From Fidelibacterota bacterium (GTDB lineage: Bacteria; Fidelibacterota; Marinisomatia; Marinisomatales; UBA1611), in the NCBI GenBank assembly GCA_002718655.1, contig PBFM01000023.1, positions 17,426 through 67,436 of the forward strand: a stretch of DNA of 50,011 bases, in the 5' to 3' direction. Each line of letters starts with the position of its first letter. Position 1 is the first letter of the stretch. The position numbers were made by a program, and so were the translations under genes. The notes beneath the pieces are model-generated. The model worked only from the letters and a program-made list of their open reading frames with translations, ran no database searches and was not told the DNA's origin. Shown piece by piece: positions 29,153-32,414 of the stretch.

Positions 29153-29896
29153 ATGACCTTCAAAAAATCAAATGAAAAAACCCATGTCTGCATAGGTATT
29201 AACAATTCCATATCGCTATTAGAGTCAAATCGTTTTTTCATCATGAGTGTTGACATAATGGAGGGTAGTCTGGCTCATAAAGAAAAAAAGATAATTGGTT
29301 CACAATACTTTAATCATATATCAATTTTAAAAAAAACAGATTTTTATAACTCATATCCTGGTAAGCGAACTCAAGGCATTGTTGTCAAGTTTAAAGGTAA
29401 ATTAACCTTGGACTCTTTGCCTAGGTATGATTATCCAGGAGACATTTGCATTTTAGCTTTAGACCGTATTGAAGACCCTCAAAATCTTGGCCAAATAATT
29501 AGAACTGCTGAATGTGCAGGCATTGATGGTATAGTTATTCCAAGGCATAATTCTACTACTGTTACTGAAACAGTAATTCAAGTAAGTCAAGGTGCGTTTG
29601 TTAATATTCCTATTTATGAAATAACTAATTTGAATCAGCTATTTTTAAAATTAAAAAAGAACGGATTTTGGATAATAGGTATCGAAAATAGCGTTGATGC
29701 TAAGCAGTGGCATGAAATAAACTATAGGGATAAAACTGTCATTGTTGTAGGCAGTGAGGGATATGGTATCAGAAAGAAAATTTTGGAAAACTGCGATTTT
29801 GTCTCCACAATTCCAATGCAGGGAAAATCTAGTTCGTTAAATGTAAGTGCTACAGTTTCTGCAATATTATTTGAACGACTTAGACAAATACAGTAA
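29153..29896 (+). CDS. rlmB: SpoU/TrmH-family RNA 2'-O-methyltransferase (RlmB-like)
   Basis: 247 residues of the trefoil-knot SPOUT superfamily. Motif 1 is RIEDPQNLGQIIRTAECAG with the catalytic Asn/Arg, motif 2 VVGSEGYGIRKK, and motif 3 IPMQGKSSSLNVSATVSA. A ~75-residue N-terminal substrate-binding domain precedes them, the arrangement of RlmB (23S rRNA Gm2251). Other 2'-O-methyltransferases of the same layout are possible, so the symbol is provisional. The upstream 173 bp hold only the tRNA promoter side and nothing else I can see. It is followed 9 bp later by the class IV aminotransferase. Confidence 0.88.
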   Translation: MTFKKSNEKTHVCIGINNSISLLESNRFFIMSVDIMEGSLAHKEKKIIGSQYFNHISILKKTDFYNSYPGKRTQGIVVKFKGKLTLDSLPRYDYPGDICILALDRIEDPQNLGQIIRTAECAGIDGIVIPRHNSTTVTETVIQVSQGAFVNIPIYEITNLNQLFLKLKKNGFWIIGIENSVDAKQWHEINYRDKTVIVVGSEGYGIRKKILENCDFVSTIPMQGKSSSLNVSATVSAILFERLRQIQ

Positions 29897-29905
29897 ACAC
29901 AGACT

Positions 29906-30817
29906 ATGCCATCAACACACGACTATATCATAGACAAAAGGAATGAAAATATTCAGATATACATTAATGGTGAATTTTTTCATCGTTTGAAAGCTAAAAT
30001 TTCTGTTTTAGATAGTGGCTACTTATTAGGAGATGGTGTTTGGGAGGGTATACGTTTACATAAGGGAACTTTAATTCATTTAAATAAGCACTTGGATAGA
30101 CTTTATGATGGGGCTAAATCCATTGCAATGAATATTCATAAATCAAAAGAAGAAATAAAACTTGCGATTATTGAAACTCTCAAAATAAATGGAATGGTTT
30201 CAGATGTGCATATTCGGTTGATTGTATCACGCGGAATAAAATCAACCCCATACCAGCACCCAAAGGTCACGATTGGGAAGCCAACTATTGTCATAATCCC
30301 AGAGTATAAAATTGCAAGTAAGGAAGTTAAGAATAAAGGTATAACTATCGCGACGGTAGCTACTATCAGAGATAATCGGACACAAGACCCAAGAATTAAT
30401 TCATTGAGTAAGCATAATTGTATATCTGCTTGCATTGAAGCAGAAAAAATGGGAGTAGATGAAGGACTAATGCTTGATTCTAATGGGAATGTATCCACTT
30501 GTAATTCTACAAACTTTTTCATTATTCGTAATAATGAAGTTTGGACCTCCAAGGGGGAATTTTGCTTGAATGGTGTTACCAGAGGCAGTGTGATAGATTT
30601 ATGCCAAAAAAATAAAATTATAATATATGAAAAAAATTTTGGTCTTAAGGATGTTCATAGTGCAGATGAGGTTTTTGTGACAGGGACTTTTGCTGGAATA
30701 ATTCCTGTTACTTCAGTAGATGGAATTAAAATAGGAAATGGCAGGCTTGGAAAGCTAACCAAACATCTTCAAATACTTTATGATTCAGATATAGAAGGGA
30801 AAACCAAAAAACAATGA
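29906..30817 (+). CDS. PLP-dependent class IV aminotransferase (BCAT-like, atypical subfamily)
   Basis: 303 residues of fold-type IV PLP enzymes (branched-chain or D-amino acid aminotransferases, aminodeoxychorismate lyase). The start of the fold is VLDSGYLLGDGVWEGIRLH, the catalytic Lys is K169 in SLSKHNC, and the phosphate-binding region is GVTRGSVIDL. The usual G-x-V-x-E-x-x-x-x-N-x-F motif reads GNVSTCNSTNFF, with Thr where Glu is normal, which marks a separate subfamily. It overlaps the sulfotransferase-like gene by 4 bp (ATGA), and in eukaryotes similar aminotransferase and sulfotransferase-like domains are associated, as I recall. A substrate beyond common branched-chain amino acids is likely. 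Confidence 0.85.
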   Translation: MPSTHDYIIDKRNENIQIYINGEFFHRLKAKISVLDSGYLLGDGVWEGIRLHKGTLIHLNKHLDRLYDGAKSIAMNIHKSKEEIKLAIIETLKINGMVSDVHIRLIVSRGIKSTPYQHPKVTIGKPTIVIIPEYKIASKEVKNKGITIATVATIRDNRTQDPRINSLSKHNCISACIEAEKMGVDEGLMLDSNGNVSTCNSTNFFIIRNNEVWTSKGEFCLNGVTRGSVIDLCQKNKIIIYEKNFGLKDVHSADEVFVTGTFAGIIPVTSVDGIKIGNGRLGKLTKHLQILYDSDIEGKTKKQ

Positions 30818-31545
30818 ATGGAATAACCATTGCTATGTGGTCGGGGCCAAGAAATATATCTACTGCGATGATGAGATCTTTTGAAAATCGGGAAGATACA
30901 GTAGTGTTAGATGAACCATTTTATGCTTACTACTTAAAAAATACAAATTTGGCACACCCTGGCAAAAAAAAGATTATTGCATCCCAAAATAGCAATTGGA
31001 GTGAAGTAGTAAAGATATGTACAAAATCCTTTCCTAATGAGAAAAAGATATGGTATCAAAAACAAATGGCTCAACACATATTAGATGGGGATAGCATAGA
31101 TTGGATTGATGGCTTAAGAAACTGTTTATTAATTCGTAATCCAAAACTTGTAATCAACAGTTATATGAAACAATTTCCCTTAGAAAACATAAACCATTTA
31201 GGATATCCCCAGTTATGTAAAATACTGGACCATCTTGAAAAAAAAAATGGAGAATCACCACCAATTATAGATGCTGATGATCTTTTAAAAAATCCAAAAA
31301 AAATCTTAAAAAAATTATGTCAAAAACTAGAAATCTGTTTTTCATCCAGAATGTTGTCATGGCCAAAAGGAAAGAGAGAATCAGATGGGGTCTGGGCAGA
31401 ACATTGGTATGGACGTGTTGTCCAAACGACAGGCTTTGATTCACATCGTAAGCGAAAAATAAAACTTGATCCTATATTGATTCCAATATATGACTCTTGT
31501 ATGAAGTATTATGAAAAAATGTACAAGAGAAGAATAACCTTATGA
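30814..31545 (+). CDS. Sulfotransferase-like P-loop protein
   Basis: 243 residues. The N-terminal IAMWSGPRNISTAMMRSF matches the 5'-phosphosulfate-binding loop of PAPS-dependent sulfotransferases (pattern W-S-x-P-R-x-x-S-T). LLIRNPKLVINSYMKQF corresponds to the 3'-phosphate-binding region (R-N-P, then Ser). It overlaps the class IV aminotransferase by ATGA and the DUF422 gene by ATGA, so the three form one translational unit. I infer a small-molecule modification, perhaps sulfation of an amino- or hydroxy-compound or a lipid. The substrate is not readable, and PAPS synthesis genes are not in the window. Confidence 0.82.
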   Translation: MNGITIAMWSGPRNISTAMMRSFENREDTVVLDEPFYAYYLKNTNLAHPGKKKIIASQNSNWSEVVKICTKSFPNEKKIWYQKQMAQHILDGDSIDWIDGLRNCLLIRNPKLVINSYMKQFPLENINHLGYPQLCKILDHLEKKNGESPPIIDADDLLKNPKKILKKLCQKLEICFSSRMLSWPKGKRESDGVWAEHWYGRVVQTTGFDSHRKRKIKLDPILIPIYDSCMKYYEKMYKRRITL

Positions 31546-32378
31546 AAATGAATGAATCTTTACTTGTTATATTTGTATTGCTAACAGGATCAGTTCCATT
31601 TTTATATCGTATGGTTCGTCAAGGTTCATTTTCATGGTTTATTAAAAATGATGACCTCCAATATAATGAGAGTTACAAGAGAGCTGAAAAATTACGTTTT
31701 TTTCAGATTATATTAGGTCTTTGTTATTTTATTGTGCACGGTTCAATAATTTGGGAGTGGGTAAACATCTTAATCTTTATGGGATTAGCATTGATTATTG
31801 GTTTTGCAATGGAGATAATAGGTTCTAAAAGTGGCTTGTTATTTGGAGGTAAGTATGAATATGATATTGAAAAATTTCCTGGGCCAATTTTAGAAGGTGT
31901 TCCATTAATTATTCCAATATCTTGGGCAGGATTAACCTATATGGGTTTAAACTTTTGTAGTTTAATTACAGGAGTCCAGATCGGGGAAAATGATTCTCAA
32001 ACAATTTTACTTATCATTATGACCAGTTTATTTGTTACTAGTTTAGACTTGGTTTTAGACCCATTAGCAGTTAATGAAAAGCGTTGGGGTTGGAAACATC
32101 CCGGATCATATTATAAGGTGCCCATATTAAATTTTGCAGGTTGGTTTTTTACGGTTATCGTAATACTATGTTTATATTCGTTGTTTAATAATGAGAAACT
32201 AGTATCTCAGGATATTGATTCATTTCTTAAATATTCACCTGCTTTATTGTTTTCCATTCTTCCATTAATTGCTTCAAGACCGTGTTTCGAAAGAGGATTG
32301 ATTGTCCCAGGTATTATTGGTCTTATGCTTTCATTGGCTTTCACATTACTCCTGATTATAAAACTAATTTATGCTTAA
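31542..32378 (+). CDS. Carotenoid biosynthesis membrane protein (DUF422, CruF-like)
   Basis: 278 residues with about seven membrane helices. The family signature GFAMEIIGSKSGLLFGGKYEY is at about 87-107, followed by GPILEGVPLIIPISWAGL, VTSLDLVLDPLAV and WGWKHPGSYYKVPILNFAGW, all characteristic of DUF422 proteins. Known members (CruF and the bisanhydrobacterioruberin hydratase) add water to the end group of acyclic carotenoids. No other carotenoid gene is present here, so the substrate could come from elsewhere in the genome or the family member may act on another isoprenoid. It ends 2 bp into a strong terminator. Confidence 0.88.
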   Translation: MKMNESLLVIFVLLTGSVPFLYRMVRQGSFSWFIKNDDLQYNESYKRAEKLRFFQIILGLCYFIVHGSIIWEWVNILIFMGLALIIGFAMEIIGSKSGLLFGGKYEYDIEKFPGPILEGVPLIIPISWAGLTYMGLNFCSLITGVQIGENDSQTILLIIMTSLFVTSLDLVLDPLAVNEKRWGWKHPGSYYKVPILNFAGWFFTVIVILCLYSLFNNEKLVSQDIDSFLKYSPALLFSILPLIASRPCFERGLIVPGIIGLMLSLAFTLLLIIKLIYA

Positions 32379-32414
32379 ATAAAAAACGCGTCGAAATGAC
32401 GCGTTTTTTATTTA
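32376..32414 (+). terminator. Rho-independent terminator of the aminotransferase/sulfotransferase/DUF422 operon
   Basis: A hairpin with stem AAAACGCGTC/GACGCGTTTT extended by AAATAA/TTATTT, loop GAAAT, followed by a T-rich tract. It begins in the DUF422 stop codon. The stem is nearly symmetrical, but the next gene on the minus strand ends 200 bp away, so it mainly serves the plus-strand operon. Confidence 0.92.

Follow-up and report, generated by a model that had tools for sequence, protein, structure and literature searches.

Nearly all PLP aminotransferases have one Schiff-base lysine in common. In the fold type IV enzyme Halhy DAAT this residue is K143, Y147 bonds the PLP phenol oxygen and E176 binds N1, and a tyrosine at the Y147 position is a hallmark of the BCATs; we take these roles, as well as those of the phosphate-binding Arg and Thr residues of fold type IV, from PMC8401098. 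The closest solved relative of the aminotransferase-like protein considered here (AT) is the 'aminotransferase-like protein' of Variovorax paradoxus (PDB 7z79), which shares 45% identity with it, a TM of about 0.95, the CNSTN motif and an Asn at the Schiff-base lysine position, but which has Arg in place of Lys169 of AT and belongs to a nested clade found in ABC transporter operons, mostly without the sulfotransferase (ST) that accompanies AT. PDB 9j32 is titled as the N174K mutant of 7z79 and differs from it at the Asn165-equivalent position, so those who deposited 7z79 had evidently noticed that the lysine is missing; our literature search found no paper on the 7z79 protein. The closest solved relatives of ST, by profile as well as by fold, are the sulfotransferase domains of CurM and the olefin synthases (OLS; 4gbm, 4gox), which share with it the R...S of the 3'-phosphate site and which activate a hydroxyl for elimination (PMC3903477). 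These are polyketide-synthase domains working on beta-hydroxyacyl-ACP, whereas ST is short and free-standing and resembles them only weakly overall (TM 0.54-0.59). The third gene of the locus encodes a protein with family-level likeness (PF04240) to CruF, or bisanhydrobacterioruberin hydratase.

The window, by which we mean the whole stretch of 50,011 nt analysed, comes from a Fidelibacterota bacterium whose genome is available as a 2.1 Mb draft, 80% complete. The genes of interest and their surroundings are as follows.

29153-29896, + strand: RlmB-type SpoU methyltransferase, ending 9 nt before AT
29906-30817, + strand: AT, protein of the class IV aminotransferases (PLP fold type IV) that lacks the Schiff-base lysine, 303 aa
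30814-31545, + strand: ST, Sulfotransfer_5 family protein, 243 aa
31542-32378, + strand: PF04240 membrane protein ('carotenoid biosynthesis' family), 278 aa
~32376-32414, + strand: hairpin with a U-rich 3' arm, likely terminator, -21.1 kcal/mol, z = -7.0

The consecutive ORFs of AT, ST and the PF04240 gene share ATGA overlaps and run into a strong hairpin, just as the sequence-only reading had described them; a simple terminator scan does not list this hairpin, apparently because the U-tract was counted within the stem. On account of the overlaps and the terminator, that reading considered the three genes a dedicated unit. The run begins earlier, however: with the RlmB gene immediately upstream on the same strand, the co-directional run consists of four genes, which makes 'three-gene dedicated unit' inexact. 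In our neighbourhood comparison RlmB adjoins AT in most loci from the window's family.

AT has the class IV fold of the BCAT and DAAT enzymes (5mqz, 5cm0, Halhy DAAT), matching PF01063 (Aminotran_4) at 8e-42, and its AlphaFold model (pLDDT 93.5) compares at TM 0.95 with 7z79 and at about 0.89 with canonical and archaeal BCATs. The likeness extends to the phosphate-binding Arg and Thr residues, R65, T225 and T261, which are conserved in the AT family, and to the carboxylate-site Arg, retained as R104. In contrast, three other positions of the cofactor site depart from the BCAT/DAAT pattern.

30398-30400, + strand: codon of Asn165, which stands where the catalytic Schiff-base lysine would be (aligned to the K of IKSLNYLNN in 5mqz/5cm0)
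30410-30412, + strand: codon of Lys169, four residues past Asn165, where BCATs have the tyrosine contacting the PLP phenol oxygen
30497-30499, + strand: codon of Thr198, at the position of the pyridine-nitrogen Glu (profile alignment to VSEGSG(DN) of 5mqz/5cm0)

Asn165 is invariant in the alignment of family members (112/112), position 169 is Lys in 111 of the 112 and Arg in the remaining one (Variovorax type only), and position 198, where a Glu would bind pyridine N1, is Thr in 111/112 and Ser in one. Judged from these alignments, the catalytic Lys, the pyridine-N Glu and the O3' Tyr have been changed together, to Asn, Thr and Lys, and the changes are fixed across phyla. The sequence-only reading had pointed to the missing Glu in the STCNSTNFF motif and had placed AT in a separate subfamily; our alignment, in which the Glu falls on Thr198, bears out both statements, although the larger anomaly, the replacement of the Schiff-base lysine by Asn165, had been overlooked. 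Since a lysine at the Y147 position would sit close to C4' of PLP, it is reasonable to infer that Lys169 might serve as a relocated Schiff-base or acid-base residue. The source genome carries a separate BCAT (L002) with the normal GNAKAIGNY lysine motif, so AT is not the housekeeping enzyme.

ST matches PF19798 (Sulfotransfer_5) at 2.8e-51, and in a profile search against solved structures only CurM (4.8e-9) and the olefin-synthase sulfotransferases (4.2e-8) are significant. The top 19 Foldseek matches (E <= 0.001) of its AlphaFold model (pLDDT 95.3) are all sulfotransferases, many with PAP bound, which points to a sulfotransferase fold; TM values of 0.42-0.59 indicate that ST is distant from the solved members. 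Two motifs make up the predicted PAPS site.

30841-30864, + strand: SGPRNIST loop, candidate 5'-phosphosulfate-binding segment; S, G, P, R and the first S of ST invariant in 106 sequences
31135-31161, + strand: R108...S116, candidate 3'-phosphate-binding residues, invariant in 106 sequences

The second of these aligns with the CurM motif LVRHPxxVIxSF. At the level of sequence motifs and predicted structure, ST keeps both the PAPS-site residues (the SGPRNxST loop and R108...S116) and a PAPS-type sulfotransferase fold.

As for the supply of PAPS, the source genome holds two fused ATP sulfurylase-APS kinase genes, and in genome G045 (L117:8807-12120) AT, ST and a fused ATP sulfurylase-APS kinase gene (sat/cysC) lie in one run, with ST overlapping sat/cysC. 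Outside family f1, APS kinase is present in 14/15 genomes with ST versus 7/13 without it (p = 0.03). Among the ST-bearing relatives it is found in 22 of 35 and is absent from 13, and several ST-bearing genomes, including G005 (96% complete), G010 (95%) and all three of genus g4, have neither Sat nor APS kinase, making PAPS doubtful as the donor there; draft incompleteness is unlikely to be the cause of every one of these absences. G030 and G056 each have a further APS kinase candidate in the vicinity of AT-ST; both were rejected, one lying beside an M1-like peptidase gene with a Wzz-like gene in the stretch and the other being a weak match.

The strongest regularity of the locus is the pairing itself. 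A scan of GTDB species genomes with the AT alignment confirmed at least 583 relatives, and in 72 of the best 80 of these ST lies directly downstream of AT on the same strand; because the 80 loci were ranked by similarity to the query AT, the figure applies to those members of the AT family that come with an ST. They include Marinimicrobia, Gamma- and Alphaproteobacteria, Bacteroidota, Actinobacteria, Chloroflexi, Planctomycetota and MGII/MGIII archaea. Approached from the other side, all 30 ST loci fetched from the source genome and the window's order, the window's own locus included, have AT adjoining ST. The two genes overlap in 62 of 102 pairs and are within 50 nt of each other in 98, and no fusion was seen in 103 prokaryotic pairs. 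The AT and ST distance matrices correlate with r = 0.71 against a permutation maximum of 0.12, a correlation to which shared host ancestry contributes. Clustering of 1,112 neighbouring ORFs from the 80 loci gave no third neighbour conserved across phyla that would name the substrate; the neighbours that do recur are lineage-bound, namely PDH genes in Sphingomonadales, SAICAR synthetase in MGII archaea and HemL or OAH sulfhydrylase in a few loci. Viral carriage was not seen among viral contigs at the patterns used, and our search of published work on 7z79, lysine-less fold IV proteins, Sulfotransfer_5 and AT-ST fusions found none on the pair. AT and ST are thus an ancient, widespread two-gene core. 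The sequence-only reading, which had supposed the partnership to be old and meaningful on the ground that similar domains occur together in eukaryotic BCAT-like proteins, was right and indeed understated the case: an atypical aminotransferase is paired with ST not in this strain only but across many phyla and two domains of life.

AT is also found on its own. The Variovorax-type clade, whose residue 169 is Arg, has 100% support in our tree and branches from within the AT family; ST is absent anywhere in the genome from 8 of 10 of its genomes searched, and a polar amino-acid ABC transporter adjoins AT in 12/12 of its loci (L159, L161-L171). Some operons of this type include a GntR regulator, and now and then a CLC anion channel or P5C-reductase-like gene is present. 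The loss of Lys169 and the loss of the ST partner coincide on this one branch, which is suggestive only, because it is a single event. Four genomes have a Lys169-type AT without any ST, and plasmid copies from Rhodobacterales and other Proteobacteria (43-49% identity) have no ST alongside in the six records read, those of Rhodobacterales adjoining transporter genes instead; AT can therefore act alone. The Rhodobacterales plasmid type (L157, L158, L160) keeps the Asn/Lys signature but carries the motif TTNACN; TRAP or ABC transporter genes are found nearby, ST is not. In one Marinimicrobia locus (L034), which has AT but no ST, an alanine racemase gene comes after AT. A halide leaving group, which CLC channels next to plasmid copies might have hinted at, was rejected because the hint was not repeated in the chromosomal Variovorax-type loci.

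On balance we lean, by no great measure, towards the view that AT and ST form an ancient two-enzyme module which adds sulfate to a small amino- or oxo-acid. AT would still bind PLP (or PMP) together with a small amino or oxo acid bearing a carboxylate, yet it would not act in the manner of a usual transaminase, and Lys169 would take over as the Schiff-base or proton-transfer residue. ST would transfer sulfate to a hydroxyl or an amine of the same metabolite, either before or after the AT step, and the sulfate might be the mark of an end product or a leaving group as in CurM/OLS. The PF04240 gene would be a local hitchhiker. A sulfated amino-compound, as proposed earlier, is possible as the product.

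Let us consider the other ways in which these observations might be put together. ST might O-sulfate an amino acid with a beta- or gamma-hydroxyl group, and the sulfate might be eliminated or replaced by the AT-like protein. We consider this unlikely, even though the only solved profile relatives of ST are activating sulfotransferases, two SAR11-like loci have an O-acetylhomoserine sulfhydrylase gene ahead of AT, and the ST-free Variovorax type, residing in amino-acid uptake operons with an occasional CLC channel, would suit substrates that bring their own leaving group. However, CLC genes occur in a minority and are absent from the sampled Variovorax-type chromosomal loci, the structural kinship of ST leaves its role unfixed, and no eliminase activity is known for the AT family. 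Rather less probable is that AT is a normal transaminase for amino acids or D-amino acids in which the substitution is tolerated, next to an ST that sulfates an unrelated product, the adjacency reflecting co-regulation only. The PRK08320 and ilvE models do match AT strongly, yet under their cut-offs, and its overall fold is BCAT-like, but three PLP contacts are altered together and fixed across phyla, and its adjacency to ST holds in bacteria and archaea alike, far above chance. A little further down in our estimation comes the idea that the AT-like protein catalyses nothing itself and serves the sulfotransferase as a partner subunit for binding, regulation or substrate presentation; the loss of the catalytic lysine, as in pseudoenzymes, and the tight gene coupling are what one would expect from it, whereas near-invariance of the active-site residues (R65, H102, R104, K169, T198, N200, T225 and R226) is rare among pseudoenzymes and some genomes have AT without ST.

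The PF04240 gene had been taken as a pathway partner of the other two, for which we find no support. The domain match is clear (Caroten_synth, 4.4e-34), but against the NCBIfam CruF equivalog cut-offs the protein scores 76.7/154.7, 63.5/400 and 62.7/300, far below what they require. It lies 3' of ST only in nine genomes from three genera (g1, g4, g11) of one family, and phytoene synthase (PF00494) was found neither in the source genome, at 80% completeness, nor in 59 of 60 sampled relatives, so a carotenoid role for the PF04240 gene is unlikely. Elsewhere in the order the gene sits away from AT-ST, again in Marinimicrobia-like genomes that lack phytoene synthase. At L138, L140, L143-L145, L148, L150 and L151 PF04240 genes are found beside GGR-like FAD oxidoreductases or CMAS-like methyltransferases. 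These associations suggest a non-carotenoid isoprenoid substrate, and it seems more likely that the PF04240 protein modifies some other isoprenoid lipid. We regard the gene as probably a lineage-specific neighbour outside the AT-ST core, and with its local occurrence, its sub-cut-off scores and the missing phytoene synthase, the sulfated isoprenoid product suggested by the sequence-only reading is left without support. A three-gene pathway to a sulfated isoprenoid or carotenoid, for which the contiguity in nine genomes of one family would speak, is very improbable, considering that in all other lineages the PF04240 gene is not beside AT-ST, that the host and nearly all sampled relatives have no phytoene synthase, and that elsewhere in the order the gene keeps the company of geranylgeranyl-reductase-like and methyltransferase genes.

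Annotation pipelines at present hide whatever this pair does under 'branched-chain aminotransferase' and 'sulfotransferase'. A large, conserved family that lacks the lysine at its usual place and has a Lys fixed four residues on lends itself well to testing how far that residue can be moved. In its boldest form, our proposal would be that of a widespread fold type IV class with its catalytic lysine moved by four residues, to the place of the O3' tyrosine, coupled to a sulfotransferase acting on its amino- or oxo-acid substrate, the sulfate possibly being a leaving group; we hold this form with little confidence, but, if it is true, marine bacteria and archaea would share an enzyme mechanism and a sulfated intermediate that are both new. 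The strict AT-ST pairing itself suggests that these organisms have a small molecule that is sulfated, or a step that sulfate activates.
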